Positions 4,128-26,147 of a DNA stretch of 26,167 nucleotides are shown here, piece after piece (the first letter of the stretch is position 1; every line of letters begins with the position of its first letter). Both the position numbers and the translations under genes were made by a program. The stretch is from positions 1 through 26,167 of the IMG/VR virus record IMGVR_UViG_3300047562_004681; one strand, written 5' to 3'. Below the pieces are notes generated by a model. It was given only the letters and a program-made list of their open reading frames with translations. It ran no database searches and was not told the origin of the DNA. Source of the DNA: a virus.

Positions 4128-4133
4128 TCAATT

Positions 4134-7246: not shown

Positions 7247-7255
7247 GGAGGGCTA

Positions 7256-8167: not shown

Positions 8168-8170
8168 AAT

Positions 8171-9111: not shown

Positions 9112-9145
9112 AAAACCTCGGTCTCACTATGAGAATTTAACAAAC

Positions 9146-9153
9146 TATTTATG
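9146..9153 (-). promoter_or_regulatory. Late promoter for the SemiSWEET-like gene
   Basis: CATAAATA on the minus strand, matching the T4-type late box (N)ATAAATA. The expected transcription start near 9140 would give a leader of about 29 bases before the ATG at 9111, similar to the plus-strand late promoter facing away from it at 9192. Confidence 0.6.
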
Positions 9154-9191
9154 ATTTACATATCGCCTACTCTCGTTAATTGGCTTAAAAT

Positions 9192-9199
9192 CATAAATA
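9192..9199 (+). promoter_or_regulatory. Late promoter for fibre gene 9237
   Basis: CATAAATA about 38 bases before the gene's ATG, giving an expected leader of about 32 bases. It is divergent to the late promoter at 9146-9153. Confidence 0.65.
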
Positions 9200-9236
9200 T
9201 CTGCAAATATATCTTTATTCTTTTTTGGAGATACAA

Positions 9237-10583
9237 ATGGCAATAACACAAATACGTGGCAATACTCAAATTAAAGCGGGAACAATTCTCGACGCACAGA
9301 TTTCCGCATCTGCCGCAATTCAAACATCTAAGCTCGCAGAGGGAGCAGAATTTCTTAAGCGTGACGGCACCGTTGCTTTAACTGGCAATCTTAATGCAAA
9401 TAGCAATAAAATTGTTAACTTGGCAGCACCTGTTGACGCTGGCGACGCTGTAAACAAAGGTCATATTGATACTGAGCTTTTGGCTTATCTCAAACATGAT
9501 GGTAGCGTTGCTCTCACCGGGAATTTGAATGCCGATAATAACTCGGTTATCAATCTCGCAGCACCAGTAAATGCAAACGACGCAGCTCGTAAAGTATACG
9601 TAGACGATCTGGACGCTCTTAATGTGCGTTTGGACGGCACACGTGCAATGACTGGCGATCTGGACCTCAATAATAATAAAATCACAAACCTCGCAGATCC
9701 CGTTTCAGCATCTGATGCAGCAAACAAGGGATATGTTGACAGCGTAGCACAAGGACTGGACGTTAAACTCTCAGTTCGTGCTGCAACTACAGGAAACATT
9801 ACTCTCAGCGGTTTACAGACCATTGACGGAGTTGCTCTTGTACAAGGTGACAGAGTTCTTGTAAAAAGTCAGGCCAACGCTGTAGAAAATGGCATATATG
9901 TTGCCGGATCTGGAGCATGGGTACGATCTGACGACATGAGCGATTCGTCTCAGGCAACTGCCGGAGCATTTACGTTCGTTGAAGAAGGTACAGCTAATGC
10001 TGATAGCGGATGGGTAATATCTACAGATAACCCAATTGTTCTCGATACAGATCCAGTTAACTTTGTTCAATTCAGCGGTGCTGGCTCCTTCGAAGCTGGT
10101 GCAGGTCTTCTTAAGACCGGTAACACCATTGACATTATTTCTGCTAACGGCGCTATCGTTGTAAATGCAGATGATGTTGCATTGACTCTTGAAGATGCGT
10201 CATTGGAAATTACCAGCAGTGGTTTGAAAATTGCAACTGGAACAGCAGGACAAGTTCTGGTTGGCGATGCAAGTGGCGTACCCCTTGCGACAACTCTTTC
10301 GGGAGATGTTGCATCCGTAACTGCAAGCGGAGAGGTAACTCTTATTTCAACTATTGCACGCAAAGCGGACGTAATTGTTCGTGAAGTTCCAACCGGAGCA
10401 ATTGACGGTTCAAATACGGCATTCTCCTTAGCTAATTCTCCAGTTGATGGAACAGAGGCAGTATTCCTTAACGGACTACTTCTCAATGCTGGTGGAGATG
10501 ATTATTCAATCTCCAACAATGCAATCACAATGGTAGCTGCTCCAGAGAGCGGAGATCGACTTCTTGTTACTTACATAAAATAA
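9237..10583 (+). CDS. Tail-fibre/fibritin-position protein with MTGDL repeats
   Basis: The start is the ATG at 9237, eight bases after GGAGA, not an in-frame TTG at 9225. The 448-residue product has three tandem repeats of about 44 residues (near 40-84, 85-128, 129-172), each of the form DGT-x-AMTGDLDLNNNKI-NLADPV-A-DAANKGYVD, a known phage fibre repeat. It then has a beta domain (RVLVKSQ, then NGIYV) and at the C-terminus one copy of the shared module (AIDGSNTAFSL to GDRLLVTY). It occupies the place of fibritin (wac) in T4 order. Seven of about eleven arginines use CGT, unlike the DUF4815 gene. With its own promoter, ribosome site and terminator, this suggests a very abundant virion protein. 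Confidence 0.8.
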   Translation: MAITQIRGNTQIKAGTILDAQISASAAIQTSKLAEGAEFLKRDGTVALTGNLNANSNKIVNLAAPVDAGDAVNKGHIDTELLAYLKHDGSVALTGNLNADNNSVINLAAPVNANDAARKVYVDDLDALNVRLDGTRAMTGDLDLNNNKITNLADPVSASDAANKGYVDSVAQGLDVKLSVRAATTGNITLSGLQTIDGVALVQGDRVLVKSQANAVENGIYVAGSGAWVRSDDMSDSSQATAGAFTFVEEGTANADSGWVISTDNPIVLDTDPVNFVQFSGAGSFEAGAGLLKTGNTIDIISANGAIVVNADDVALTLEDASLEITSSGLKIATGTAGQVLVGDASGVPLATTLSGDVASVTASGEVTLISTIARKADVIVREVPTGAIDGSNTAFSLANSPVDGTEAVFLNGLLLNAGGDDYSISNNAITMVAAPESGDRLLVTYIK

Positions 10584-10615
10584 GGTTGGGGATAACTATA
10601 TAATCCTTTGAAATT

Positions 10616-10652
10616 GGGGGGCGGTTCCTTTAAAGGGCCGCCCCCTTCTTTT
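10616..10652 (+). terminator. Rho-independent terminator after fibre gene 9237
   Basis: A perfect 8-bp GC-rich stem, GGGGGCGG (10617-10624) with CCGCCCCC (10638-10645), loop containing the palindrome CCTTTAAAGG, followed by TTCTTTT. It ends the transcript of the fibre gene 32 bases after its stop. Confidence 0.9.
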
Positions 10653-10686
10653 ATGCAATGTTTAAAAAACTCGCTATGAGAGGAGT

Positions 10687-10694
10687 TATAAATA
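10687..10694 (+). promoter_or_regulatory. Late promoter for collar gene 10732
   Basis: A perfect TATAAATA. The expected start near 10700 gives a 32-base leader before the ATG at 10732, the same leader length as for the gene at 9237. Confidence 0.75.
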
Positions 10695-10731
10695 GAGATC
10701 TGTACAACAATTATCTTTTACCGGCACAGTC

Positions 10732-13113: not shown

Positions 13114-13133
13114 TTAAAGGTAATTTTCGGGCA

Positions 13134-13141
13134 TATAAATA
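13134..13141 (+). promoter_or_regulatory. Late promoter for gene 13206
   Basis: A perfect TATAAATA, about 20 bases after the collar gene's stop and about 65 bases before the ATG at 13206. Confidence 0.7.
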
Positions 13142-13205
13142 TTCTGCAATAATATCGAGTAAGATACTTAATAGCTTTAGTGCTAATTATTTGGAGATAT
13201 TAAAC

Positions 13206-13454
13206 ATGTCGGAGCAAAATACTGCAAATCAAGTTAGTCTTGTCGAGGTCTCAAAGGCTTTGGAGGTCGTAGCAGTTCTTTTAAGTCAACTAAACATTCC
13301 CGCTACAAGATCGCAGGAATTTGCAATTACCATCAACGTTTTAGGTGAATTGAAGACTCATGTCGATTCAAAATTAAATCCTCAAAATGTTGAAGAATCG
13401 GTTGTTTCTGAGGCCGAAACTGCCGCACTAGCCCAAGAAGCCCCTGCCGAGTAG
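13206..13454 (+). CDS. Small late protein of unknown function
   Basis: An 82-residue protein starting at ATG 13206, ten bases after GGAG. A TTG at 13191 in frame is an unlikely start. The leader TTGGAGATA is nearly the same as that before the abundant fibre gene at 9237. The product is acidic and mostly helical (SLVEVSKALEVVAVLLSQL, then QEFAITINVLGELKTHVDS) with an alanine/glutamate-rich tail. No family is recognised. A perfect late promoter and a strong ribosome site suggest an abundant virion or morphogenesis protein. Confidence 0.7.
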   Translation: MSEQNTANQVSLVEVSKALEVVAVLLSQLNIPATRSQEFAITINVLGELKTHVDSKLNPQNVEESVVSEAETAALAQEAPAE

Positions 13455-13461
13455 CATCTGG

Positions 13462-13487
13462 AAACATAAATAGATGTGTTTATGTTT
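13462..13487 (+). repeat. 9-bp inverted repeat overlapping a late promoter
   Basis: AAACATAAA (13462-13470) and TTTATGTTT (13479-13487) are perfect reverse complements with an 8-base spacer, and the left arm contains the CATAAATA box. It could be a protein-binding site or a symmetric late promoter firing both ways: the right arm gives CATAAA on the other strand. Confidence 0.6.
13465..13472 (+). promoter_or_regulatory. Late promoter upstream of structured gap and holin
   Basis: CATAAATA. The expected start near 13478 lies about 12 bases before the first strand of the predicted three-way-junction RNA (13490). Transcription would continue into the holin gene at 13617. Confidence 0.55.
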
Positions 13488-13489
13488 AA

Positions 13490-13594
13490 GGCTTCAGGTG
13501 GTCTCTAATTAATCGTATTGATATACCCACCTTAATACGATTGAAGGATTATATCTTTTACACATTTGTAAAAATGTACTGATCATCTGAAGCC
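13490..13594 (+). ncRNA. Predicted three-way-junction RNA (leader of holin or free ncRNA)
   Basis: A gap of 162 bases without a gene holds three nested helices. P1 is GGCTTCAGGTG (13490-13500) with CATCTGAAGCC (13584-13594), 11 bp with one G-U. P2 is 13509-13520 with 13533-13544, including the perfect core AATCGTATT/AATACGATT. P3 is ACATTT/AAATGT (13562-13577) closing a GTAA (GNRA-type) tetraloop. It starts shortly after a late promoter and ends 22 bases before the holin ATG, with the holin ribosome site AAGGAAGAGAG outside the structure. It could be a regulatory leader or a separate RNA. No known class is recognised. Confidence 0.55.
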
Positions 13595-13616
13595 AAAATT
13601 CCGCAAAGGAAGAGAG

Positions 13617-14144
13617 ATGCTTTCAGAGACTATCACATCTTGTATAAAGTCAAAAGGTCATTTACTGCAAGAGCATTTACAAACCTTAGTCGTGGCGATA
13701 CTGGCAGTATTCGCTCCGTTAAAAACGATCATGCTTGCTCTTCTGTTTCTTATTGTCTCGGATCTGGCAACAGGTCTCTGGGCTTCTATTGTTACTCACG
13801 CCCCTCTTACATCCCGACGACTTGCTAGAACGGTAGTTAAAACTTTAGTTTACCTTACAACTATTTGTGTTGTACATATCGCAAACCGATACCTTTTATC
13901 AGCCGGAAGTTTTGCTCTTCCACTGGATACTTTAATTGTATCTTTTATTGCGCTAACTGAAGTCAAGTCTATACTTGAAAATTTACAAAAAATTCAAAAT
14001 CAACCATTCCTGCAATACATAATAGATCGTCTTGCTTCTGATAAAAGTGAGATTCAAGGTAAGATTACAAAAAAACCCGTAACACGAAAATCATCCAAAG
14101 GAAAAAGACGTGGCACTTCCAAGCGACAGAAACTCTCTAATTAA
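13617..14144 (+). CDS. Phage holin (Phage_holin_4 type)
   Basis: A 175-residue membrane protein. Hydrophobic segments lie near residues 22-52, 75-92 and 100-116. The phrases VSDLATGLWASI, LTSRRLARTVVKTLVY and ALTEVKSILENLQKI follow the conserved pattern of the Phage_holin_4 family (D-x-x-TG, then S-R-x-x-x-T-x-x-K, then E-x-x-SILENL). Such proteins open the inner membrane at lysis. The tail is long, basic and Lys/Arg/Ser-rich (KKPVTRKSSKGKRRG), typical of the cytoplasmic end of holins. Ribosome site AAGGAAGAGAG. The end overlaps the gp13 start by 35 bases. No endolysin is seen nearby. Confidence 0.8.
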   Translation: MLSETITSCIKSKGHLLQEHLQTLVVAILAVFAPLKTIMLALLFLIVSDLATGLWASIVTHAPLTSRRLARTVVKTLVYLTTICVVHIANRYLLSAGSFALPLDTLIVSFIALTEVKSILENLQKIQNQPFLQYIIDRLASDKSEIQGKITKKPVTRKSSKGKRRGTSKRQKLSN

Positions 14145-15396
14145 ATTTTGTCTCCAGGAACTAGGTGCTCCAGTCGTTCAAATAAATGTTGATGAAGAGC
14201 AAATAGAAAATCAAGTAGACAAAGCTCTTGAAATGTTCAAAGAGTACCACATTGATGGTACTGGAATATTTTACAAAGCATTTAGAGTAACTGGCTCAAC
14301 AATACAGCTGAAAAGCGTTTCTGACACTGATTTCAAATATCACGAAACAATTGTGGGCAGTTCATCTGGAACTCGTGCAAGAGTTGAACACTACGACAAA
14401 GATACAAAAACAATTACATTTGTCATACTAAACAGAATAGATGCAGATGAGTTTGAAGCAGCCGCACAATCTGATTTTGATGTTAATACACTTATAACCG
14501 GTGAGGTTCCTTCAGGTCTTGTAAACGGAACTAACACCACATTTACTCTTGCAAACACCCCAAAGCCTGGAACATTGCAAGTTTATCTCAACGGAATACT
14601 ACAAAAAGCTGGGGACGGAGAAGATTATAATATACTTGGAGATGTAATAACATTCACAAATGCCCCCGATGAGGGAACTACAATACAGGCCAGCTATGTT
14701 AGCACTCAGTTAGTTTTATCATCATCTGGGAGTAGCAGTGGCTCTGCTGGATTTTTAGATGGAGAGACTGTTACTGGAAATATATCAGGAGCATCCGGAG
14801 TTTTGTTAGACTTTAATGCTCAAACGCTCGGCATGATAGATAAGAAATATATTGAGCTAAGCGACTCAGTAGTTGGCATTATCGAGATGCTTAGACCTAG
14901 AAGCACGTTCGGTTCTCATCCGATTAACCCTTTTGATTTGCAGTATCAGCTAGCTCAACAAGTAACTATTCACACGTTTCTAAATGCGGACGTTACAACT
15001 TATTATCAATTTCAGCAAGATATCCAACTGTGGAATCAGCTATTTGTTGGATACAAACCTCATTGGCACTCTCGAAAACAAAATAGACTCTACATTCATT
15101 CTAACTGGAGAGAGGAGTTTAAGGTAGGCGAGTACATTGTGGTCAAATTCTGGGGGACTATACTTCCAGAAGAATACCCTAAAGTATATGGAGATAAGTG
15201 GATTCGTAAATACTTAACCGCATTGTTACAGGTTCAGTGGGGAAGAAATCTCACTAAGTATAATAACGTAACACTTCCCGGTGGAGTAGTGCTAAACGGA
15301 AATCAAATACTGGAGTTAGGTCTAAAGGAAAAGGAAGAAGCTGAGATTGAACTTCGTTCCACCTATGAAATGAAGACTCCGTTTAAGATAGGGTAG
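14110..15396 (+). CDS. 13: Neck protein gp13, enlarged by inserted modules
   Basis: A 428-residue protein from a GTG at 14110. The family start MALPSDR supports this choice. The N-terminus (LQELGAPVVQINVDEEQIE, then ALEMFKEYHIDG) and the C-terminus (DKWIRKYLTALLQVQWGRNL, then LPGGVVLNGNQILELG and MKTPFKIG) match T4 gp13 as I remember it, the neck protein joining head to tail. T4 gp13 is about 310 residues. The extra length lies near residues 60-240: a YHETIVGSSSGTRARV segment, one copy of the shared fibre module (SGLVNGTNTTFTL to FTNAPDEGT) and a GETVTGNISGASGV segment. These could form surface decorations on the neck. It overlaps the holin gene by 35 bases. Confidence 0.88.
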   Translation: MALPSDRNSLIKFCLQELGAPVVQINVDEEQIENQVDKALEMFKEYHIDGTGIFYKAFRVTGSTIQLKSVSDTDFKYHETIVGSSSGTRARVEHYDKDTKTITFVILNRIDADEFEAAAQSDFDVNTLITGEVPSGLVNGTNTTFTLANTPKPGTLQVYLNGILQKAGDGEDYNILGDVITFTNAPDEGTTIQASYVSTQLVLSSSGSSSGSAGFLDGETVTGNISGASGVLLDFNAQTLGMIDKKYIELSDSVVGIIEMLRPRSTFGSHPINPFDLQYQLAQQVTIHTFLNADVTTYYQFQQDIQLWNQLFVGYKPHWHSRKQNRLYIHSNWREEFKVGEYIVVKFWGTILPEEYPKVYGDKWIRKYLTALLQVQWGRNLTKYNNVTLPGGVVLNGNQILELGLKEKEEAEIELRSTYEMKTPFKIG

Positions 15397-15403
15397 CCAT
15401 TCT

Positions 15404-16264
15404 ATGACTGCCAATAAGTATTTCAATCATTTTAAAAATAAAAAAGAGCAAGATCTTTTAGATGATCTAATGAATGAAATCATTCAAATCCACGGTTTAA
15501 ATTGCATTTACATTCCACGTTCGGGTCCGGTTGATTTGTTTTATGGTGAAGATCCACTAGCAAAATTTGACAAGTGGTTTGAAATGGTAGCCTACATTAA
15601 GAGCACTGATGGATTTACAGGTAAAGCCATGTTGCAAAAATGGGGCATAACCATGGAACAGTCTATCACCATTCAAATTGGTAAAACTGAATTTATTAAA
15701 CAGATTGGTAACTACCTCGCTCCCGTAAATCGTCCTAGAGAAGGAGATCTTTTGTATTTTCCTTATGGTATACCGGGACAATATCTTCTTGAAATCAAAT
15801 ACATCACAGACAACGTACCCTTTGTTGAATTAGGAAAGGATTACATTTACGAAATTGATTGCAGAGTATTTACTTACAGCCACGAAAATATTCAGACCGG
15901 ACTGCCTGAAGTTGATGCAATTGAAAATGAAATCAAGCAAGGAATTGAAATTGAAGTGGGCATGGGACTTGGTGATTTTGTAAAAGGAGAGGTTGTATAT
16001 CAAGGAGATTCATTTGCCCTTTCCACATTCAAAGCTGTTATTAAAAATATTAATGGAACTACCGTCCATTTGTCTAACATCAACGGAACGCTAAATGAAA
16101 ATGATGTCTTACAGGGAAACACATCCGGAGCAACACGCTCTATAACTGGCGACCAACAAGACATTATTAATGACACCACCGCACAGAATAAGATTATCGA
16201 AACCCAATCGGCATCTGTTGTTATTAAAAATAGCAGAAATCCATTTGATAAAGGTAAGCTATAA
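15404..16264 (+). CDS. 14: Neck protein gp14
   Basis: A 286-residue protein. The phrases NKKEQDLLDDLMNEIIQIHG, IYIPR, LFYGEDPLAKF, YFPYG and FVELGKDYIYEI follow T4 gp14, which with gp13 forms the neck that closes the filled head and receives the tail. The C-terminal part contains a beta insert (LSNINGTLNENDVLQGNTSG) resembling the segment inserted in gp13. It ends with the gp14-like SRNPFDKGKL. Only 7 bases separate it from gp13, and its stop overlaps the gp15 ATG (TAATG). Confidence 0.88.
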   Translation: MTANKYFNHFKNKKEQDLLDDLMNEIIQIHGLNCIYIPRSGPVDLFYGEDPLAKFDKWFEMVAYIKSTDGFTGKAMLQKWGITMEQSITIQIGKTEFIKQIGNYLAPVNRPREGDLLYFPYGIPGQYLLEIKYITDNVPFVELGKDYIYEIDCRVFTYSHENIQTGLPEVDAIENEIKQGIEIEVGMGLGDFVKGEVVYQGDSFALSTFKAVIKNINGTTVHLSNINGTLNENDVLQGNTSGATRSITGDQQDIINDTTAQNKIIETQSASVVIKNSRNPFDKGKL

Positions 16265-17094
16265 TGTTTGGGCACTTTTATCACGGCACACTAGAAAAGG
16301 TTACAAAAGCGTTCGGAACGCTTTTTAATCGCATTTACGTGGTAAAGTATGATACCGACGGAAAAGAAGTCGAGAGAAATCTAGTTCCTATTAACTACGC
16401 CAACAGACATGCTTATATTGCTCGTTTGGAATCTCAGCCTGAGTTAGAGGACTTAGTAGCAGTCGAAGCCATATTTCCCCGTATGGCCTTTGAGATTACA
16501 GGTATGTATTACGATTCAACTCGAAAGTTAAACACAATACATCGCCGGACCACCGACCTCGGAGAGGACTTATCTGTTAACTCGACATATCAATCTGTTG
16601 CATACAATGTCGATTTTGGATTGACCATTGTCGCAAAGCATGTAGTCGATGCCAATCAAATACTAGAGCAGATTTTGCCATATTTTACCCCAGCATACAC
16701 AATAAAGATTAACGCTATACCAGAAATGGGCTTTGAGGAAAATATCGCAATTGAACTGAGAAGCATCTCTCCATCAGATAACTATCAGCAGGAACTTGAG
16801 ATCCAACAAAGACAGGTGCGATTTGATTTATCGTTTACAGCCAAAATAAACTTTCACGGGCCAATTGACAGAGCCGGCGTTATTAAACAAGTTCAAGTCG
16901 ATTTTCACACCCCAAAAGACCTTGACGATGAGGCTCTTTCCAAGACTCCTCGAAGGGCTCGCAGCACCACAACAACAAACCCTCCAGATGCCAACCCAGG
17001 AGATGATTTTGGTTACACTGAAACATGGCAGGAATTTGTTGATAATAAAAAGTTTAACCCCGAAACTGGCACTGACGAAGAAATTCCAGAATAA
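16264..17094 (+). CDS. 15: Tail completion and sheath stabiliser protein gp15
   Basis: A 276-residue protein. The opening MFGHFYHGTLEKVTKAFGTLF, the segment VPINYANRHAYIARLES, and VDANQILEQILPYFTPAYTI match T4 gp15, whose hexamer caps the tail tube and contracted or extended sheath and joins the tail to the neck. Length is near that of T4 gp15 (about 270). The C-terminal 50 residues are polar and Pro/Thr-rich, as in T4. It begins in a TAATG overlap with gp14, completing the T4 order 13-14-15. Confidence 0.9.
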   Translation: MFGHFYHGTLEKVTKAFGTLFNRIYVVKYDTDGKEVERNLVPINYANRHAYIARLESQPELEDLVAVEAIFPRMAFEITGMYYDSTRKLNTIHRRTTDLGEDLSVNSTYQSVAYNVDFGLTIVAKHVVDANQILEQILPYFTPAYTIKINAIPEMGFEENIAIELRSISPSDNYQQELEIQQRQVRFDLSFTAKINFHGPIDRAGVIKQVQVDFHTPKDLDDEALSKTPRRARSTTTTNPPDANPGDDFGYTETWQEFVDNKKFNPETGTDEEIPE

Positions 17095-17128
17095 AACTTA
17101 CTTGTTACGCCACTATTCATATTGAGAC

Positions 17129-17136
17129 TATAAATA
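17129..17136 (+). promoter_or_regulatory. Late promoter upstream of gene 17317
   Basis: A perfect TATAAATA, in the context CTATAAATAATC that recurs at 24489-24500. The expected start is near 17142, giving a leader of about 175 bases, far longer than at the other late promoters here. Confidence 0.7.
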
Positions 17137-17141
17137 ATCAA

Positions 17142-17301
17142 TAGGCATTGTAGTGTAATGTTACGCTCAAAATAAACAAATCGCTGAGCTACCGTTTTGA
17201 GTATGACAACGAATCAGCACGGCAAGGGATAAATCCCCAACGTTTTACTTATTTTTCGTTTGCAAGTGTCGGGAATATCGTGGAATAGACTGACCAATGC
17301 C
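17142..17301 (+). ncRNA. Possible structured leader or ncRNA
   Basis: About 170 bases without a convincing gene. The first bases of the predicted transcript, GGCATTG (17144-17150), are perfectly complementary to CAATGCC (17295-17301), which is followed by TTTTT. Inside are AGTGTA/TACGCT (17152-17167, one G-U), CTCAAAA/TTTTGAG (17166-17172 and 17195-17201, partly exclusive with the former), GGGA/TCCC with a four-base loop (17226-17237) and GTCGG/CTGAC (17268-17272 and 17290-17294) next to the closing helix. The start of the region resembles a tRNA acceptor and D arm, but no T-arm sequence is present. This is weaker evidence than for 24504-24591. Confidence 0.35.
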
Positions 17302-17316
17302 CTTTTTAAGGAACCT

Positions 17317-17595
17317 ATGGCAAAGAAAAAATCTCGCATCGAAGAAATCAATGAAAAGCTTTTAGAGCATGTCGAGGCTATGGAAAATCTTTTCCCCCCT
17401 GAACTGCAAATGAATATTAACGTCATTGGCAGGGACGAGCAGGGAGTTGGATGTGAGTTTATAATCGGTCGAGATGGTCCATCTGAACTACTCGGAGTTA
17501 TCGAGCGAACCCTCAAGCGGGTATCTGCCCCAAATAAAGCTTCCGGGTTGAAAAAGAAGGCGGCACCTAGGTCAACAAAAAAGACTAAAAAGTAA
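17317..17595 (+). CDS. Small protein with basic tail, unknown function
   Basis: A 92-residue protein from ATG 17317, preceded by AAGGA at good spacing. An in-frame ATG at 17260 lacks a ribosome site and falls in the structured leader. The N-terminus is helical and charged (KKKSRIEEINEKLLEHVEAM), the middle has a beta-like part (INVIGRDEQGVGCEFIIGRDG), and the tail is strongly basic (KKKAAPRSTKKTKK), suggesting nucleic-acid or acidic-protein contact. In T4 the gene after 15 is the small terminase 16, but this protein is much shorter and I see no resemblance. Its last 11 bases overlap the end of the opposite-strand protease gene. Confidence 0.7.
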   Translation: MAKKKSRIEEINEKLLEHVEAMENLFPPELQMNINVIGRDEQGVGCEFIIGRDGPSELLGVIERTLKRVSAPNKASGLKKKAAPRSTKKTKK

Positions 17596-18853
17596 GTCGC
17601 CTCACCTTGCTCACGTTGGGGTTATCTTGAGCAACTGCCGAAATTGTAACTCTTCGGCGTCTGCCCGGACTTAATATAATTCTTCCTTTAGCTGATGTTA
17701 CACGAAGAAATGAGCGCCTATTCATTGTAATTTGCAATGTCCGATTTGCGAGTAACTCACTTGTTACTGAACGCAAAATAATTCTTATCTTACGCCGTTT
17801 AAATTTACTAATAGAAATTGTTGCGCCGTGGAGCGACGGTGGTACTGAGTCTACTCGAATGCACGAGCCAAATGCGTCAACAAATGCGTTAATCTCCCCT
17901 AAGCTATAGCCGCTAAATGTTGGATTACCAAAGCTAATTGACGGGTACATAAGACTTCCCGGAGCGTTCTGATCATGCCAAGCTCCCAAATTATGCCCAA
18001 GCTCATGAGCAAGTACTGTGTGGGTAACTGAAGCATATGATTGAGTCACGTTATAAGAATACGTTGGCGCACGGCAGACTACGCCAATGTATGCAATTCC
18101 TATCGTCGAGCCGTCTAAATCTTTGCCAGTAAATAGCACTTTAACATTTTCAGGTACGAGTGTCGTTGATTGCCGCCTAAATTCATTTAGTAATTGAGAT
18201 GGATTTGTTTCTGGTGACGTTTCCGAATAGTTTACCAATCGAGCCATCTCAAGTCTCATGTTCAATTGATTGGCATAAAACGCTTCAGCTGCGTTAATTG
18301 TGGCAGCAACCTGAGCATCAGAATTTGCACCATGCTGCATTTGCCATTCAGGATCTGTAAATGCCGCAATGGTTAATATTCTGGCGGTTTCAAAAGATGC
18401 AACAGACAATTCATTGATAACAGTGGCGTGAGTGTGCGCACCATCATGATCATTTCCACATGTTTTACCCTTTATCACCGAACTTGGAACGCTGTTTACT
18501 CGAACTCCAGATGAATTTACTTTAAGCCTAAACATCCTCTGCCGGCTTCTCCTTGAGCCCGTAATTTTACCCGGAAACTCATAGGTCCATTCATCGCCTG
18601 ATCGTACAGCGGCTAAGGGAAACGTTTTGGAATGGATTTTAACTCTTCCTTGATAGAACTGATGGGTCTTTGCAAAATTGAATCTTTTCTCACGCTCAAC
18701 TCGAACGTCAACTGTCCCCAACCCCCGCACTCGAAAAGTTTCGGCATAACTAAATTCAGTTAGGCAAAGTAAAAGTAAAGAGCATCTAAATACAATACGG
18801 AGATGTCTGTATATGATATTTGAAAGATTGTTCGCTGAAATGATTGAGACCAT
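17585..18853 (-). CDS. Secreted metzincin-type zinc metalloprotease
   Basis: A 422-residue protein. The zinc site HELGHNLGAWHD (first His at residue 283) fits HExxHxxGxxH/D, and SLMYPS about ten residues later fits the metzincin Met-turn, so it is a reprolysin-like protease. A signal peptide is likely: the hydrophobic stretch VFRCSLLLLCLTEFSYA precedes a plausible cleavage site after SYA, near residue 37. The catalytic domain has paired cysteines around it. The C-terminal 85 residues form a basic beta-rich domain (FKRRKIRIILRS). The only in-frame ATG start available overlaps the divergent gene at 18813 by 41 bases, and its ribosome site is poor. A secreted protease is rare in tailed phages. 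It could degrade surface or biofilm protein. Confidence 0.8.
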   Translation of the reverse strand: MVSIISANNLSNIIYRHLRIVFRCSLLLLCLTEFSYAETFRVRGLGTVDVRVEREKRFNFAKTHQFYQGRVKIHSKTFPLAAVRSGDEWTYEFPGKITGSRRSRQRMFRLKVNSSGVRVNSVPSSVIKGKTCGNDHDGAHTHATVINELSVASFETARILTIAAFTDPEWQMQHGANSDAQVAATINAAEAFYANQLNMRLEMARLVNYSETSPETNPSQLLNEFRRQSTTLVPENVKVLFTGKDLDGSTIGIAYIGVVCRAPTYSYNVTQSYASVTHTVLAHELGHNLGAWHDQNAPGSLMYPSISFGNPTFSGYSLGEINAFVDAFGSCIRVDSVPPSLHGATISISKFKRRKIRIILRSVTSELLANRTLQITMNRRSFLRVTSAKGRIILSPGRRRRVTISAVAQDNPNVSKVRRLTF

Positions 18854-19130
18854 AGCGGGTGAATTCTCCCAAACTCAAAAAAACTTTCTTAAATTTGTCT
18901 TAAAGCCGATTTACAGTGACAAACTTAAGACTACTTTACATGCTCATTCGCTACTTGAGCACGATCCTTTACAGGTGGCCGTAAAAGACAGCATCGAGCG
19001 GCGATTAAGAATGGAACTAAACCTTCTTCCTCCGAATCCAACCGCTGAGGAGTCCTCCAAAATAAACGAACTCCAGGCCAAATATAGAGAAAAGTGGAAA
19101 GCTCTTGCTCTTAACAAAGGCATCCATTAG
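18813..19130 (+). CDS. Hypothetical helical protein
   Basis: A 105-residue protein with GGAG about 10 bases before the ATG at 18813. A later ATG at 18840 is possible and would nearly remove the 41-base overlap with the opposite-strand protease gene. The sequence is mainly helical (FERLFAEMIETIAGEF, then LRMELNLLPPNPTAEESSKI, then NELQAKYREKWKALAL). No family is recognised. Confidence 0.6.
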   Translation: MIFERLFAEMIETIAGEFSQTQKNFLKFVLKPIYSDKLKTTLHAHSLLEHDPLQVAVKDSIERRLRMELNLLPPNPTAEESSKINELQAKYREKWKALALNKGIH

Positions 19131-19223
19131 TTTTAAGTTTACTCTAAAGTTCACATTCTCAGCCATTACTATTTTTGCATAAAGTAATTTTCGCCGTACG
19201 ATTTCATTTGATAAACTCACCTC

Positions 19224-19790
19224 ATGCACTATTATCGCATTGGACAACTACAGAAGCATCTGTATCTATATGTCGATACGAATTTCACGCATAAAGAGCC
19301 CGTGGGATTTATTCCGTGCGTTTGGTTTGGGCTGGTTTCTTACCCTTCACGTTCCTGGGGATGTAATCTTTTATTAGAAAACGGAGCAATTTATCGCAAC
19401 GTTCCCATAAGCGCCCTATCGTTTACTCCTAATGCTGAACCCTGGTCTCTCGAGCAGGCACAAGCCTACAATTGCTACAGTGACTCGTTTACCGTCATAG
19501 AGTATACATTCCTATCCGGATTGAAATGTGCCGTTAAAATTGATTCTAAGGCACTTATTGGTCATTACTTATTTACTGTAGCGCCTACACATGATGGATT
19601 CTCGCATGAGCCTGAGCAAAATAAAGAATTGCTCTTTATTAGATTAAATAATGGCCGATTAACCGTACAGCCGACAAATCACATTAAAATTGAGGACGTT
19701 AGCTTCACTGAAAAGTTTAATGGCGATTTAAGCTTGCCAAAGGGATTAAAAGGTCAAAAGGAAATATATCAAGCAGACGAGGGAAAATGA
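19224..19790 (+). CDS. Conserved phage protein of unknown function
   Basis: A 188-residue protein. The phrases CVWFGLVSYPSRSWGCNLLL and ENGAIYRNVPISALSF resemble a conserved hypothetical protein that I associate with T4-like phages of aquatic bacteria. That recollection is not checked. The rest is beta-rich with a conserved-looking aromatic pattern (LEQAQAYNCYSD). No catalytic motif, signal peptide or membrane segment is seen. The ATG at 19224 follows 93 bases of AT-rich DNA with no late promoter box. Confidence 0.75.
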   Translation: MHYYRIGQLQKHLYLYVDTNFTHKEPVGFIPCVWFGLVSYPSRSWGCNLLLENGAIYRNVPISALSFTPNAEPWSLEQAQAYNCYSDSFTVIEYTFLSGLKCAVKIDSKALIGHYLFTVAPTHDGFSHEPEQNKELLFIRLNNGRLTVQPTNHIKIEDVSFTEKFNGDLSLPKGLKGQKEIYQADEGK

Positions 19791-19833
19791 AAAATTTGTA
19801 GACCTGAAGGTTTGAAAAAGAGATAATGAAAGT

Positions 19834-20097
19834 ATGAAAACGTTTTACAAATACATCAGAGGGTATGAAATAGATAAAAATGGAACTCGAGTGTGGTTTT
19901 ATAAAAAATTAAAGGCCACCACAAAACGGTCTCTCACTCAGAAATATCAAAGCCTCATTTCAACTCTGAAGACTAAAAGTCACCCATTTGCCATTAAACA
20001 AACAGTGACGTACAGCAAAAAAGATGGCAATTTGGCAGTCATTTCATACAAAGGATTTCCCGAAGGACTAGGCAATAACGTATTTTACTGGACATAA
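19834..20097 (+). CDS. Small hypothetical protein
   Basis: An 87-residue basic protein (KTFYKYIRGYEIDKNGTRVW, then LKATTKRSLTQKYQSLIS). It follows the previous gene by 43 bases and precedes the next by 5, so it is probably co-transcribed. The upstream bases contain GAGATAATGAAAG, a modest ribosome site. Aromatic and basic residues in a compact beta-like pattern could suit nucleic-acid binding, but no family is recognised. Confidence 0.6.
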   Translation: MKTFYKYIRGYEIDKNGTRVWFYKKLKATTKRSLTQKYQSLISTLKTKSHPFAIKQTVTYSKKDGNLAVISYKGFPEGLGNNVFYWT

Positions 20098-20102
20098 AGC
20101 AT

Positions 20103-20663
20103 ATGAATATCTTTTATCTGCACAATGACCCCGAAATCTGCGCCCAATATCATGTCGATAAACACGTTGTGAAGATGATTCTCGAATATGCACAGCTCCT
20201 ATCAACAGCCCACAGAGTCTTAGATGGAACGCAAACTGATGCCATATCTGACAAGGGTAGAAAGAAAACTCTCTATGTTCTGTCAGATGAGAGGGATTCT
20301 CACCTCTATCAAGCCACACACATAAACCACCCAAGTGCCAAATGGACCAGGCATTCAGCGCAAAACTATCAGTGGCTTTATAAAATGTGGCTCGCATTAA
20401 TGGAGGAGTACACATTTAGATACGGCAAAGTTCACACATGCGAAAAGCTCAAAGTGGCCTTAGCCAATACCCCAAACAATATTCCCACAAATGATTTTAC
20501 ATCTCCTTGGAGAGCTATGCCGGATGAGTTCAAAGTTCCAAGAACGGTCAAAGATTACACGATTCAATCGTATCGAGCGTATTATAATGGCTCAAAGTCC
20601 CACATGTTTAAGTGGAAAAATCGAGCCGCACCTGAGTGGATAGCCTATGAACAAGCAGTGTAA
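20103..20663 (+). CDS. Conserved phage protein, DKHVVKM family
   Basis: A 186-residue protein. The opening (MNIFYLHNDPEICAQYH, then DKHVVKMILEYAQLLSTAHR) and the segments HINHPSAKWTRHSAQNYQWL and RAMPDEFK are typical of a widespread phage protein family. Database entries in this family are sometimes named pyrimidine dimer glycosylase, but I see no resemblance to T4 DenV and treat the function as unknown. Conserved His, Lys and Trp residues suggest an enzyme or nucleotide-binding role. It sits with dCMP deaminase and a zinc-cluster protein, so a nucleic-acid role is plausible. Confidence 0.8.
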   Translation: MNIFYLHNDPEICAQYHVDKHVVKMILEYAQLLSTAHRVLDGTQTDAISDKGRKKTLYVLSDERDSHLYQATHINHPSAKWTRHSAQNYQWLYKMWLALMEEYTFRYGKVHTCEKLKVALANTPNNIPTNDFTSPWRAMPDEFKVPRTVKDYTIQSYRAYYNGSKSHMFKWKNRAAPEWIAYEQAV

Positions 20664-20985
20664 ATGTTGTTATCAATATAAAATACTTTCAGAATTTCAC
20701 AAAGATGCCTCAAAGCCGGATGGTACAAGGATTTACTGCAAATCTTGCCAACTTTCAAAACTTCAATCATACCGAGAAAGTAATAGAGCAAAGAATCAAG
20801 ATCGTGACCCTTACAACAAGTACGAAAGATTGTTTAAGAGATGCACACACTGCAAAGAGGAGTTAACCGTATTTCAATTTCGCAAAAATCCAAATTTCCC
20901 CGACGGTCTAGCCTGCGAGTGTGATAAGTGCCACAAGGAATACTCAAAACAATATCGAGCAAAAGCTAAATCAAAATGTGCCTAA
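20647..20985 (+). CDS. Double zinc-cluster protein
   Basis: A 112-residue protein overlapping the previous gene by 17 bases. It holds two similar Cys4 units. The first pairs CKCC near the start with YCKSC about 25 residues on. The second pairs RCTHC with CECDKC. Each unit has the phage pattern C-x2-C, then F-K/R-K-D/N-x-x-PDG, then C-x2-C followed by a basic tail. This matches the zinc-binding part of HNH and endonuclease VII-like proteins, but no catalytic HNH part is present. It is probably a DNA- or RNA-binding protein. The repeat arrangement indicates internal duplication. Confidence 0.7.
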   Translation: MNKQCKCCYQYKILSEFHKDASKPDGTRIYCKSCQLSKLQSYRESNRAKNQDRDPYNKYERLFKRCTHCKEELTVFQFRKNPNFPDGLACECDKCHKEYSKQYRAKAKSKCA

Positions 20986-21003
20986 GCCGGGCAGTTAAAA
21001 TGT

Positions 21004-21489
21004 ATGAAAATTAACTCTGACCAATTCTTCATGAGCGTTGCAATCTTAAGCTCTCATAGAAGCAAGGATAAAACTCAAGTAGGAGCCTGTATAGTAAGCG
21101 AGGACAAGCGAATTATTGGTGTCGGATGGAATGGTATGCCCAAAACAATTCAAGGCGTACAGAACGATGATGTCTTTCCCTGGGGCAAAGAGTCTGACAA
21201 TCCACTAGAAAACAAGTACATGTACATAATTCATGCTGAGCCCAACGCAATTTACCACGCCTCAGAATCTGTTAAAAACTGCACCATGTATCTAAATTGG
21301 TTCCCCTGCGCTGAGTGCGCAAAGGCAATAGTCCAGTCAGGTATAAAGAGATTGATATATTTAAAACATGCTCCAACGGATAGATATCAAGTCTCCATGG
21401 AAGGCGCAAAAAAGATATTAACTCTAGGTGGAGTTGATGTTGTTGAGTACGCCTCGAATAAACATGATTTAGTTATTAAGTTTGAGTAA
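21004..21489 (+). CDS. dCMP deaminase
   Basis: A 161-residue protein of the cytidine/deoxycytidylate deaminase family. Zinc ligands and catalytic residue are visible as HAEPNAI (His77, Glu79) and PCAECA (Cys102, Cys105), and the substrate region GVGWNGMP lies before them. It converts dCMP to dUMP, feeding dTMP synthesis during phage replication, as Cd does in T4. Length is slightly below T4 Cd (about 190). The start ATG lacks a clear Shine-Dalgarno. An ATG four bases earlier is in another frame. It is followed by 34 bases and a late promoter that belongs to the next gene. Confidence 0.9.
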   Translation: MKINSDQFFMSVAILSSHRSKDKTQVGACIVSEDKRIIGVGWNGMPKTIQGVQNDDVFPWGKESDNPLENKYMYIIHAEPNAIYHASESVKNCTMYLNWFPCAECAKAIVQSGIKRLIYLKHAPTDRYQVSMEGAKKILTLGGVDVVEYASNKHDLVIKFE

Positions 21490-21508
21490 AACCTTAACCA
21501 AGTCCACA

Positions 21509-21516
21509 CATAAATA
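21509..21516 (+). promoter_or_regulatory. Late promoter abutting gene 21524
   Basis: CATAAATA ends only 7 bases before the ATG at 21524. The expected transcription start (about 6 bases after the box) falls at 21522, so the message would be almost leaderless. Confidence 0.5.
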
Positions 21517-21523
21517 GTATTTC

Positions 21524-21922
21524 ATGAGCAGACATAAACAATCAGAAATAGAAGCCCTCGCCTCCGCAATTGGAGAAGTCATATCGAGCACTCCTTCATC
21601 CTCAGAGAGTCTACTTTGTGAAGAGGCCAAAGCTTCCGAGCAAAAAGATGACGAAATCTTAGTTCATAAAGCTCATGGGAATCGCCACCTCGTTATGAAA
21701 GGAAAAAAGGTCGGCGGACTATTAGGACATATCGACCGTATTCCAAATGTTAACCTAGATGATATGAGTAGCAGCCCAGAAACCGACGGGCATCATGCTT
21801 ATGGCCTAGAATGGAAAACCGGAAAGAGTGGTATTCCAAAAGAAAGGCAAAGAAGATTAGGTCAGTTCCCCTCTCATGAAGAGGCAGTTGCCGCAATCAA
21901 AAAGTTTCACAAACTCCCATAA
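21524..21922 (+). CDS. Late protein with putative capsid-targeting leader
   Basis: A 132-residue protein. The N-terminus (MSRHKQSEIEALASAIGEV) resembles the leaders of the proteins at 24970 and 25314. It has possible prohead-protease sites I-G-E after residue 18 and L-C-E after residue 33. After a Ser-rich linker comes a small domain ending FPSHEEAVAAIKKFHKLP, which resembles the end of the protein at 25314 (SDEHEAINKLKAHHNLP). No enzyme motif is seen. A late promoter overlaps its start. It is proposed to be an internal head protein, by analogy with T4 IP proteins. Confidence 0.7.
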   Translation: MSRHKQSEIEALASAIGEVISSTPSSSESLLCEEAKASEQKDDEILVHKAHGNRHLVMKGKKVGGLLGHIDRIPNVNLDDMSSSPETDGHHAYGLEWKTGKSGIPKERQRRLGQFPSHEEAVAAIKKFHKLP

Positions 21923-21936
21923 TTCAAACAAGAGCT

Positions 21937-22428
21937 ATGATTACTTTCCTTGAGTATATCCAGCTCTTTGAATCAGATTCCCCTCTAGTTCTCTATCATG
22001 GTGGAAGGGGATACGTTTCTAAGCCTAATCTAAAGCGTACACAACGAACGGACAGAGGAGTGTATGGCAAAGGATTTTATGCCACCACCGACCCTCAATC
22101 AGCTGCCTTCTATGGTCCAAAGGTAAGCCAATACGAAGTCTCTAAAACTGCCAAAGTATTCTCAACCTCATTTGACCCAAGAGAAGCCAATAGCTCACAG
22201 GTAAATGATGTCATATCTCACCATAAATCTTTAAATCCAAACTTAACAGATTCAGACCTGGAAGATATTAAAACAAATCATTCAAGTTGGAACAAAGCTG
22301 TAAACGATTACGCTGACCATCACAAGTTTGATATGATTCATCTCTCACAGAAACATTACAATCCTGAGATTGTGGTCAAGAATCCAAAGGCATTGCGCTT
22401 CGTTGGTAAACACAAAAGCTCCAAATAA
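21937..22428 (+). CDS. Putative ADP-ribosyltransferase with capsid-targeting-like leader
   Basis: A 163-residue protein with AAGAG before the ATG. Residues 19-60 read like the start of an H-Y-E type ADP-ribosyltransferase: LYHGG (His21), then GVYGKGFYATTD (Tyr48), then AAFYG. Near the C-terminus NPEIVVKNPKAL supplies a candidate glutamate, Glu144. Small toxin and phage ARTs share this layout. T4 encodes Alt, ModA and ModB, which ADP-ribosylate host RNA polymerase and ribosomal proteins. The first twelve residues MITFLEYIQLFE end in L-F-E, fitting the (L/I)-x-E cleavage rule of T4 prohead protease, so it may be packaged like Alt. Function and target are inference. Confidence 0.65.
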   Translation: MITFLEYIQLFESDSPLVLYHGGRGYVSKPNLKRTQRTDRGVYGKGFYATTDPQSAAFYGPKVSQYEVSKTAKVFSTSFDPREANSSQVNDVISHHKSLNPNLTDSDLEDIKTNHSSWNKAVNDYADHHKFDMIHLSQKHYNPEIVVKNPKALRFVGKHKSSK

Positions 22429-22490
22429 AATGTTTCAAACATGTTCTAAAGTAATGCTCAAGCGCATCTTTGAACTGTTAACATATTTGA

Positions 22491-22676
22491 ATGAAGTCTC
22501 CTAACGAACAACTCTCCGATGCTGAGCGTGTAAAAAAGCTTGAAGCTATCATTGCAAAAATCTCATCTGCCAAATCTTTAAAAGAGGTAAGGTCAATTCT
22601 CGGACTTGATTCTGATACCAATTCGTCTCCAGTATTGAGATTGAGTTCCAATTCTCTAGTGTTCAAAAGGCGATAA
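22491..22676 (+). CDS. Small hypothetical helical protein
   Basis: A 61-residue protein, charged and helix-prone (SDAERVKKLEAIIAKISS, then LKEVRSILGLDSD), with a basic end. No clear ribosome site and no late promoter box lie upstream. A perfect 6-1-6 palindrome, ATGTTTCAAACAT, occurs about 55 bases before the start. The composition looks protein-like but the gene is unproven. Confidence 0.45.
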   Translation: MKSPNEQLSDAERVKKLEAIIAKISSAKSLKEVRSILGLDSDTNSSPVLRLSSNSLVFKRR

Positions 22677-22971
22677 AGGGCAAATTCTCATACTCGCAAC
22701 GGCGAAAAATGAGAAAAATGTGAAAGATCCGGACTCGTCGTCGATTTTGAACTTTGATTCCCCCCTCCGCCGTGGCGAAAACGGAAATTTTTTCAGTTTG
22801 TCAAGATTTTAATTTGAGCGAGTGAAAATATCAGAAATGCGATATGAAATCCTGCGCCTCGGCGCAAAGTTCATTCGAGCGAGTGAAGGGACTTGATCAA
22901 TTTCAATTTTGATATTGAGAAAAGCTCCTCTTCAATTTTGAAATTGATCAGCAGATTCCCATCTTCCTGAG
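22677..22971. other. Structured non-coding region between convergent genes
   Basis: About 295 bases with no convincing gene. It contains two copies of GAGCGAGTGAA (22816-22826 and 22877-22887), a compact GC hairpin TGCGC-CTCG-GCGCA (22853-22866), and a 13-bp perfect inverted repeat at 22894-22950. Short C- and T-rich runs occur, but no standard terminator T tract follows the hairpins on either strand. It lies between a plus-strand gene and the end of the minus-strand cluster. Confidence 0.6.
22894..22950. repeat. 13-bp perfect inverted repeat with 31-base spacer
   Basis: TGATCAATTTCAA (22894-22906) and TTGAAATTGATCA (22938-22950) are exact reverse complements. The spacer can form a small inner pairing (ATTGA with TCAAT). 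It lies 22 bases past the stop of the minus-strand gene at 22972, so it could act as a transcript-end hairpin for that gene, though a T tract is lacking. Confidence 0.7.
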
Positions 22972-23481
22972 TTAGAAAGTTGAATCGTACGATTGCTTGT
23001 AGCCGGCGTTAGTCAAATGATCAATGAATCTGATCTCTGCACTATCCTGGGAGAATGTTTTAAACACTGACTCGGATGGAATTCTGACATAGTTCTCTCC
23101 ATTGGTGAGAAGCTGTCCGTGGTCCTGGGCTCGATAGTCCAAAGATCTGAACTGTGCGTAGTAAGCCTTGTTAGCGGTCTCGATATTAACGCCGATGCGA
23201 TTTTGAATCTTCCACTCAAGAGCCTTATTCGCATGAGCGAGTTTCTGCTCCTCTTGCAGCTTGATAGCCTCAGCCTCTTGCTTGATAGCCCTAGCTGATT
23301 TAGGTCGATTAGTACGGCTCATGAGGACGCTAGCGCAATCAACTCCGACTCGGATGATCTCTAGGGTGGACTCGCCATTCTCGAAGACCTCGAGGGCAAC
23401 AGTGCGCTTTAAACCTTTACGACCGCAGCAGTCACATTCTGTCTGGTCGTCTGAGATGCCTTTGATTGTGTATGTATTCAT
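22972..23481 (-). CDS. Phage zinc-finger-like protein, early/middle cluster
   Basis: A 169-residue protein with a good ribosome site (AAGGTAGGTG before the ATG). Near the N-terminus C-D-C-C-G (Cys16, Cys19) followed by LKRTVALEV, and later VGVDCASVL, follow a phage/plasmid family with the pattern CxxCG, then L-x-TVAL, then G-x-x-C-A. The family appears to bind zinc and its function is unknown to me. A long Lys/Glu/Gln-rich helix follows (AIKQEAEAIKLQEEQKLA). It is served by its own promoter (23500-23527) and separated from the upstream minus-strand genes by a terminator. Confidence 0.75.
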   Translation of the reverse strand: MNTYTIKGISDDQTECDCCGRKGLKRTVALEVFENGESTLEIIRVGVDCASVLMSRTNRPKSARAIKQEAEAIKLQEEQKLAHANKALEWKIQNRIGVNIETANKAYYAQFRSLDYRAQDHGQLLTNGENYVRIPSESVFKTFSQDSAEIRFIDHLTNAGYKQSYDSTF

Positions 23482-23499
23482 ATATCACCTACCTTCTAG

Positions 23500-23527
23500 T
23501 ATATAGTATCGGCGGACTTCAAACAAA
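23500..23527 (-). promoter_or_regulatory. Early/middle-type promoter, box copy 1
   Basis: On the minus strand, TTTGTTTGAAGT (23527-23516), ten bases, then TATATA (23505-23500). The same box and the same 10-base spacing to a TATAT sequence occur at 24414-24387. Overlapping sigma-70-like elements TTGTTT and TATACT with 17 bases between are also present. The box lies within a near-perfect palindrome (23518-23542), TTCAAACAA...TTGTTTGAA, which could be an operator. Confidence 0.55.
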
Positions 23528-23540
23528 CTTTAGTTGTTTG

Positions 23541-23582
23541 AAAGAAAAAAAGCCTAAGCTATATGTTTCAATAACTTAGGCT
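23541..23582 (-). terminator. Rho-independent terminator of the minus-strand cluster
   Basis: On the minus strand, AGCCTAAG and CTTAGGCT form an 8-bp perfect stem (23551-23558 with 23575-23582) around a 16-base loop, followed directly by TTTTTTTCTTT. It ends the transcript of the genes between 24351 and 23603 and insulates the promoter of the next gene. Confidence 0.85.
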
Positions 23583-23602
23583 CTAAGGTAGTGATGTGAG
23601 GA

Positions 23603-23860
23603 TTAAGCGGCCCTGACCGGAACAAAAAGAACTGGAAGTCCAACCTCAGAGAAGGCAGTCTGGAACCTGGTTTTAAGCTCCTCTGTGACCTCCAGAGCGG
23701 GGACATAGAGATTGTCGGGGAATGAGTTGTTTCGAGGATCATCTCCCAGGAAATACGATTTTAGAGGGTACTTGCGGGAAAGCCTAGCGAGAGTCTTAAT
23801 CTCGGAATCTTTCAATCTGTTAACGTGCTCAGGATTAAATGCGATAACTGTTTTTTTCAT
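23603..23860 (-). CDS. Small hypothetical early/middle protein
   Basis: An 85-residue protein with a strong ribosome site (AAAGGTGGTG) before the ATG. It has a helical start (NPEHVNRLKDSEIKTLARLS), a middle with FLGDDPRNNSFP, and an alternating end (VGLPVLFVPVRAA). No family is recognised. It starts 15 bases after the 58-residue gene and ends 21 bases before the terminator stem, so it is the last gene of the unit. Confidence 0.7.
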   Translation of the reverse strand: MKKTVIAFNPEHVNRLKDSEIKTLARLSRKYPLKSYFLGDDPRNNSFPDNLYVPALEVTEELKTRFQTAFSEVGLPVLFVPVRAA

Positions 23861-23874
23861 GACACCACCTTTGT

Positions 23875-24051
23875 TTATTTAACTAACCCTGGCTCCAACG
23901 CCTCAACCATCTCTTCCAAAACCTGCTCAGCGGTCTGAAGGGACTTCTTGTACGAGGGAGCGTGATACGAAGCCTGACGAGCCCTCTCCGAGGTAATCAA
24001 CCTCAAAGCCGTCATCATTGCCTCAACTTTCATTTCCTTGCTCATTTCCAT
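23875..24051 (-). CDS. 58-residue hypothetical protein
   Basis: A short open frame: it begins MEMSKEMKVEAMMTALRLIT, continues with a helical middle (RQASYHAPSYKKSL, then TAEQVLEEMVEALEPG) and stops with LVK. AGGT lies 7 bases before the ATG. A second ATG two codons later is also usable. It sits 9 bases after the upstream gene's stop and 15 before the next start, exactly filling the gap in a compact unit, which supports it as real. It is amphipathic and helical, with no family recognised. Confidence 0.7.
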   Translation of the reverse strand: MEMSKEMKVEAMMTALRLITSERARQASYHAPSYKKSLQTAEQVLEEMVEALEPGLVK

Positions 24052-24414: not shown

Positions 24415-24489
24415 GCTTAACATATTTTTTAAAAAATAAGTGAAAATTCATCTACACAATTTGCGTATGAGTAGATATGAAATATTGGC

Positions 24490-24497
24490 TATAAATA
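24490..24497 (+). promoter_or_regulatory. Late promoter abutting structured RNA
   Basis: A perfect TATAAATA in the context CTATAAATAATC, shared with 17128-17139. The expected start (about 6 bases after the box, 24503) falls one base before the first paired base of the predicted RNA. Confidence 0.7.
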
Positions 24498-24503
24498 ATC
24501 TTC

Positions 24504-24591
24504 GCCCGGTTGCTAGGGGGTGTTTTTACCGTTTCCTGCCACTAACTCAAACTCGAAGCAGAACGGTGTCAGAGTTTGGGAGTGACCGGGC
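24504..24591 (+). ncRNA. Predicted pseudoknotted ncRNA with its own late promoter
   Basis: An 88-base element. P1 is GCCCGGTTGCT (24504-24514) with AGTGACCGGGC (24581-24591), 11 bp with two G-U pairs. P2 is ACCGTT (24528-24533) plus CTGC (24536-24539), pairing with GCAG (24558-24561) plus AACGGT (24562-24567), 10 bp with a TC bulge. The P2 loop contains CTCAAACTC (24546-24554), complementary to GAGTTTGGG (24572-24580), 9 bp with one G-U, forming a pseudoknot whose second strand abuts P1 directly. The last pairing could instead compete with P2 as a switch. The sequence does not match a tRNA or any ribozyme or riboswitch I recognise. The 3' end is uncertain; a weak ATTTG/CAAAT hairpin followed by TTTCTTT lies at 24592-24614. 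Confidence 0.65.
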
Positions 24592-24697
24592 ATTTGAACT
24601 ATCCAAATTTCTTTGACAGTTCATTGGCACATTTCAGAGTACAATTTCCGCACATTAAAAAGTACCAATCTCCCTACGAATTTCCATGATTAACAAA

Positions 24698-24725: not shown

Positions 24726-24811
24726 AGTGTTTTAAATTTAATAAGTTAGCTTTTGGGGACTTCGAGTCTTTTTCTATATCGAGATGGACATTTAGTCTAG
24801 GAGATTTGCGT

Positions 24812-24907
24812 ATGAGCCGGGGGAGAATGTTTGAGTATGCGGCGATTATTTTATTATTCACCGCAGAACTTAAGGGGATTAAAGAGGACTCTCACAATTC
24901 TGAATAA
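24812..24907 (+). CDS. Possible 31-residue micropeptide
   Basis: The frame reads MSRGRMFEYAAIILLF at the start and ends KEDSHNSE. AGGAG lies about 8 bases before the ATG, and a short hydrophobic stretch could be a membrane segment. The upstream bases TTTGCGTATGAG are repeated at 24460. It ends 12 bases before the late promoter at 24920. Evidence is limited to ribosome site and position. Confidence 0.35.
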   Translation: MSRGRMFEYAAIILLFTAELKGIKEDSHNSE

Positions 24908-24919
24908 GCTCAAATTCAC

Positions 24920-24927
24920 TATAAATA
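24920..24927 (+). promoter_or_regulatory. Late promoter for genes 24970 and 25314
   Basis: A perfect TATAAATA. The expected start near 24933 gives a leader of about 37 bases before the ATG at 24970. Confidence 0.7.
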
Positions 24928-25886: not shown

Positions 25887-26147
25887 ATGACTACACGCTC
25901 CGACATTGATGATATCGTATTTGGCATCTCTTCTCTGCTCCTGGAGGGAAAGGAGAATTTGAAACATTTCGAGGGGCTCTCCGGAGTCTCTAAGCACGAT
26001 CCTTCACAGCTCATTAAAGGATTTGATGTTGAAAAAGAGCACTCCAAAACAGTCGCCGGAGATTCAAAGACCATAGCCAAGATTGTCCTCGACCACCTAA
26101 CAGAAGATCCCGAATATTACACAAAGCTCATTAAAGCCGGATTGTAA
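25887..26147 (+). CDS. DUF5661-like late protein with capsid-targeting-like leader
   Basis: An 86-residue protein. Its second half (FDVEKEHSKTVAGDSKTIA, then KIVLDHLTEDPEYYTKL) follows the pattern of the DUF5661 family (a V-E-x-EH stretch, then IALDHL-x-E-x-P-x-YYT-x-L), seen in phages and plasmids with unknown function. The N-terminus MTTRSDIDDIVFGISSLLLE ends in L-L-E at residue 20, the same place as the candidate cleavage sites of neighbours. It has a late promoter at its start. Proposed to be another packaged head protein carrying a different cargo domain. Confidence 0.7.
   Translation: MTTRSDIDDIVFGISSLLLEGKENLKHFEGLSGVSKHDPSQLIKGFDVEKEHSKTVAGDSKTIAKIVLDHLTEDPEYYTKLIKAGL

Follow-up and report, generated by a model that had tools for sequence, protein, structure and literature searches.

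CyVA-1 (RF02965) is an already named family of structured RNAs, represented so far by a structure model without a known function. A partly similar layout is found in the pRNA of phage phi29, another small phage RNA that contains a three-way junction and pairs through its loops; however, the pRNA loops pair between molecules, whereas the pairing predicted for CyVA-1 is intramolecular and its family occurs also in chromosomes. CyVA-1 RNA has been found at low abundance in a halite cyanobacterial community (PMC7002113), and the family is therefore transcribed. The element described here is a phage copy of this known family with a late promoter.

The window (the whole virus record of 26,167 bases analyzed in this work) represents a T4-like myovirus and encodes homologs of the head closure protein Hc2 and of the tail sheath stabiliser, the latter with about 40% identity to cyanophage proteins. 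Searches of INPHARED with blastn gave no match for the RNA with its flanks or for positions 4000–24000 of the window, and none for the relatives L164, L183 and L247 either. The original prediction assigned the element to an unknown class matching no recognised RNA and proposed an Infernal search against Rfam. This search identified CyVA-1 as the sole Rfam RNA of the window (24510–24585, plus strand; 46.5 bits, above the gathering cut-off of 41.4, E 8.5e-08, full model 1–77), and the element is a member of this family (Table 1). A match to P14 sRNA was below threshold and was rejected as chance. The RNA of the window has the P1, P2 and P3 helices and the conserved loops of RF02965, which also gave above-gathering matches at other viral and acidobacterial loci. 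It differs from the Rfam model in that P1 extends further outward, and from the family in that the gene in this phage carries a late promoter; in addition, a kissing helix, absent from the nested model line of cmscan with which we compared it, is supported here by covariation.

Table 1. Coordinates of the CyVA-1 RNA, its parts and neighboring elements (window numbering unless a relative is named)
Feature	Position	Strand	Basis or remarks
T4-type late promoter box TATAAATA	24490–24497	+	sequence
Predicted transcription start	24503	+	T4 late spacing
CyVA-1 RNA, full element including P1	24504–24591	+	RF02965 match; model R1 match 24504–24590, the window itself having belonged to the R1 seed
P1, 5' strand	24504–24514	+	pairs with 24581–24591; 11 pairs including two wobbles
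P2, 5' strand	24517–24521	+	pairs with 24538–24542, one G.A mismatch
Conserved loop A, GUUUUU	24522–24527	+	24523–24526 invariant in 39 sequences
Kissing helix strand 1, UACCGUU	24527–24533	+	pairs with 24562–24568
P2, 3' strand	24538–24542	+	covariation
P3, 5' strand	24546–24554	+	9 bp with 24572–24580
Conserved loop B, GAAGCAGAACGGUGUCA	24555–24571	+	homolog conservation
Kissing helix strand 2, AACGGUG	24562–24568	+	covariation
P3, 3' strand	24572–24580	+	covariation
P1, 3' strand	24581–24591	+	directly abuts P3
Imperfect hairpin downstream of the RNA, potential 3' end	24595–24623	+	inverted repeat, without U-run
Late box of the next gene (ATG 24970)	24920–24927	+	sequence
tmRNA	L178: 7687–8074	-	Rfam
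tmRNA	L183: 3107–3494	+	Rfam

Homologs were gathered by pattern scans and covariance-model searches; many loose matches to the loop patterns were coding DNA and were discarded as chance. The viral relatives comprise L002/L003 (one phage type), L012, L178, L183, L043, L191/L193 and L179/L180/L182, and further L245–L247 and L249–L251. The covariance model R1, built from six viral sequences, independently found acidobacterial members (E-values down to 1.2e-14), and within one family of Acidobacteria it matched 48 of 200 genomes; in Verrucomicrobiota, a group for which there was no positive control, it matched none of 145 genomes. The acidobacterial RNA is intergenic and a neighboring gene family is common to at most 5 of 30 loci. 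Small acidobacterial groups have common tRNA-Arg or tRNA-Leu neighbors, which probably track relatedness.

Covariation shows that the predicted fold of the CyVA-1 RNA of the window is a three-way junction of P1, P2 and P3, in which a kissing helix connects the loops of P2 and P3. In the main alignment of 39 sequences (8 viral and 31 acidobacterial), which was fitted to P1, P2 and P3 and so favors those helices, 94.1% of cells are paired. Shuffles reach 64.7%, and sliding the structure by up to three columns gives no more than 47.7%; the covariation score is 0.72, the control value being 0.20. All four helices covary. Changes on both sides were found in 10/10 counted pairs of P1 (94% of cells paired), in 9/9 pairs of P3 (93.5%) and in 4/4 pairs of P2 (90%), where G-C, C-G and A-U types occur between 24517–24521 and 24538–24542 and L183 exchanges the G.A mismatch for A.G. 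The kissing helix has 97% of its cells paired although it lies outside the alignment model; both sides change at 3 of its 6 pairs (A-U to G-C in 10 sequences, C-G to U-A in 7, C-G to G-C in 3), and a seventh pair, 24527/24568, forms in 39/39. The smaller sets of 6 and 16 sequences also covary above controls. The compensatory changes that had been proposed as a test were thus found in every helix among the 39 homologs, and, in line with the original view that chance was unlikely, the predicted structure is not a product of chance, because its covariation is far above that of shuffled and slid controls.

The pairings foreseen by the original prediction are all present, yet they are nested differently. 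Its 11-bp closing helix is P1 and its 9-bp loop-to-tail pairing is P3, both covarying. The 10-bp bulged hairpin survives as its core (ACCGUU 24528–24533 with AACGGU 24562–24567), i.e. as kissing pairs, whereas its outer extension (CUG 24536–24538 with CAG 24559–24561) is poorly kept, with 67% of cells paired and the last pair formed in 13 of 33 sequences; P2, which had been missed, replaces it. P2 covaries, and two hairpins of a three-way junction, joined by a kissing helix, fit in place of the H-type pseudoknot as it was drawn at first. There is also no evidence for the suggested switch between the loop pairing and P2, because the kissing helix, P2 and P3 are mutually compatible and all conserved. 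The minimum free energy of the element is -37.8 kcal/mol (z = -3.4; equally good folds in 1 of 200 shuffles). The corresponding fold exchanges the kissing helix for a local GGUG/UACC hairpin, rejected as the conserved fold since 37% of its inner cells pair across homologs, against 97% for the kissing pairs. The loop sequences GUUUU.CCGUU and GAAG..GAACG are present in the window and nearly invariant in the 39-sequence alignment; in loop B, positions 24557, 24558, 24562, 24563, 24564, 24568 and 24571 are invariant.

The perfect late box noted originally upstream of the element is present. In T4 late promoters the last A of the box lies at -6, which puts the expected start one base before P1, as had been predicted. 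The NATAAATA boxes of the window lie mostly on the plus strand (10 of 11), several of them right before genes, which makes the box at 24490–24497 a plausible promoter. In each of the five T4-like sequences compared (the window, L002, L012, L178 and L183), TAAATA ends 5–7 bases ahead of P1; the chance of such a placement at one locus is about 0.002 at the overall hexamer rate and about 0.01 at the intergenic rate of the window (9 in 3,356 bases), the five sequences falling into two related groups and thus not being fully independent. The late box is absent from the corresponding place in L043, L191 and L179. In the window the RNA is succeeded by about 340 noncoding bases, and a separate late box serves the next gene (in L002 the next gene has one as well), so that the RNA is not the sole leader of that gene. 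The 3' end of the RNA is not consistently marked by a U-run, which closely follows P1 in only 5 of 39 members (in L002, TTTTT comes after P1); for this reason an intrinsic terminator was rejected as a family feature.

A tmRNA (RF00023) lies directly or a short way upstream of CyVA-1 in three of the five T4-like sequences, namely L183, L178 and L012; the contig of the last is cut within the tmRNA, of which 202 bases of the 3' part remain (89% identity with that of L183). It adjoins CyVA-1 without any structural relation to it, and ARAGORN and Rfam found no tRNA or tmRNA in the window. The late box of L183 and L012 sits between the 3' end of the tmRNA and the CyVA-1 RNA. Taken with the next gene's own box and the varied acidobacterial neighbors, this promoter of its own in T4-like phages indicates a stand-alone gene, from which we infer late, stand-alone expression of the RNA. 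The view of a dedicated, pseudoknotted noncoding RNA driven by a late promoter is supported by these boxes at the 5' end and by the compensatory changes. The order of genes in L178, L183 and L012 is tmRNA, CyVA-1, nucleotidyltransferase-like gene.

A scan with loop B alone revealed many viral contigs in which loop A comes after loop B. In 28 distinct viral sequences (e.g. the cyanophage-like contigs L109, L111, L112, L119, L120, L136, L139, L164, L175 and L252–L257) the two conserved loops occur in reversed order and the kissing pairing is kept. These sequences look like an undescribed hairpin-swapped variant: they possess the two conserved loops and the kissing pairing of CyVA-1 but have P3 first and P2 after it, and other flanking helices. 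Among aligned examples 100% of the kissing cells are paired and P2 shows both-side changes in 8/8 pairs, with controls far lower; one kissing pair changes from C-G to U-A in 6 of 28. In Rfam searches none of the scanned swapped sequences reached a threshold, giving only a sub-threshold partial match. Some swapped elements are preceded by a LAGLIDADG gene and followed by a small ORF matching the CP12 C-terminus, while others stand just before tRNA-Leu. A group I intron was rejected as an explanation, as the Rfam introns present in some of these contigs are elsewhere and not at the element. Comparison of L252 with S-RIM50 (3 kb) and S-RIM8 (first 50 kb) revealed only tRNA-Leu in common, and the RNA was not found in these regions. 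Conservation of the same loop bases under direct and swapped connectivity suggests that the functional unit is the loop-loop core. Tentatively, and with somewhat more doubt than belief, CyVA-1 could be regarded as one architecture of a wider RNA group, with a reusable two-loop kissing core used in either order (P2-P3 or P3-P2) by T4-like phages, cyanophage-like viruses and Acidobacteria, the fixed core being the functional site for a ligand, a protein or catalysis. If so, the kissing core would be a previously undescribed general RNA tool of phages and hosts.

What could such an RNA do late in infection? We consider it fairly probable that phage CyVA-1 is a short late transcript of its own, folded into a kissing-locked three-way junction and acting in trans. 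To judge by the box, transcription from the T4-type promoter would begin with the 5'-most base of P1, and the loops of P2 and P3 would then be locked by the covarying kissing helix. The conserved unpaired bases (UUUU of loop A; GAAG, G and CA of loop B) may form one compact tertiary surface, presented to a host-derived or phage-encoded protein or RNP; an antisense role seems less likely, as the two loops already engage each other. A stand-alone, trans-acting structured RNA, probably protein-binding, is what we infer from these features. The original prediction had suggested that the RNA might regulate late or packaging steps; that acidobacterial chromosomes also carry the family speaks against a packaging-specific function.

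Members that count against action in trans are L043 and L191 of the direct form and L111 and L165 of the swapped form, which end about 10–25 nt before a start codon, just ahead of a Shine-Dalgarno-like sequence. For these, especially, a cis-acting leader governing translation or stability of the gene directly behind it is possible, and the same nucleotidyltransferase-like gene next to the RNA in L012 and L183 would agree with it. As an explanation it is nevertheless unlikely: the window and L002 have no directly following gene and a separate late box for the next one, downstream genes differ between lineages, closeness is expected from the tight packing of phage genomes, and a simple search for a Shine-Dalgarno/start combination within 45 nt was negative for every acidobacterial member, the neighbors of which vary. 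Or perhaps the RNA is a knot that blocks nucleases, protecting or defining the ends of late RNAs? The abutment of P1 and P3 without a gap, the kissing knot in a small RNA, suited to exonuclease resistance, and the TTTTT of L002 would fit, but the box makes the RNA begin a transcript rather than end one and U-runs are scarce in the family, so we regard this as improbable. Self-cleaving ribozymes are known to tolerate swapped connectivity around a fixed core, and the same loops in two hairpin orders could accordingly be the core of a self-cleaving or similar catalytic RNA; yet a simple binding module would explain the swapped order too, neither a cleavage site nor flanking conservation was found, and no Rfam ribozyme family matched, which makes catalysis more improbable still. 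Finally, the frame from 24467 stays open in the window, as it does through the RNA of L002, L043 and L191, but is interrupted by stops in L012, L178 and L183 (in L183 inside the RNA) and has no common start and no Pfam or PHROG match; moreover, the changes compensate each other within helices rather than being synonymous. With no conserved open frame the noncoding reading survived the coding check proposed originally; the interior stops refute the frame as a gene and leave a coding region a negligible probability.

For the CyVA-1 family, the phage copy offers a phage-based route to function, in which the dedicated late promoter provides both timing and a genetic handle. The covariation-backed kissing helix, together with the swapped relatives, confines the functional site to some 25 conserved loop bases and allows compensatory mutants to be specified exactly. 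The occurrence of CyVA-1 in both T4-like phages and a bacterial phylum suggests capture of a host regulator or an RNA spread by phages.

An exact 12-base direct repeat TTTGCGTATGAG flanks the RNA gene at 24460–24471 and 24805–24816 (0.01 expected by chance). Elsewhere in the window, a late box is followed by a leader of about 180 bases before the ATG at 17317 (17129–17316), a long 5' region that may contain a further RNA. Among the proteins encoded in the window are a reprolysin-like M12 metallopeptidase with no PHROG match, on the strand opposite to its neighbors (17585–18853, minus), a ferredoxin-like auxiliary protein (19224–19790, plus; phrog_3704), an ADP-ribosyltransferase-like protein (21937–22428, plus; DUF3990 and ART-PolyVal, both below the curated cut-off) and a DUF5661 protein above the Pfam cut-off (25887–26147, plus).
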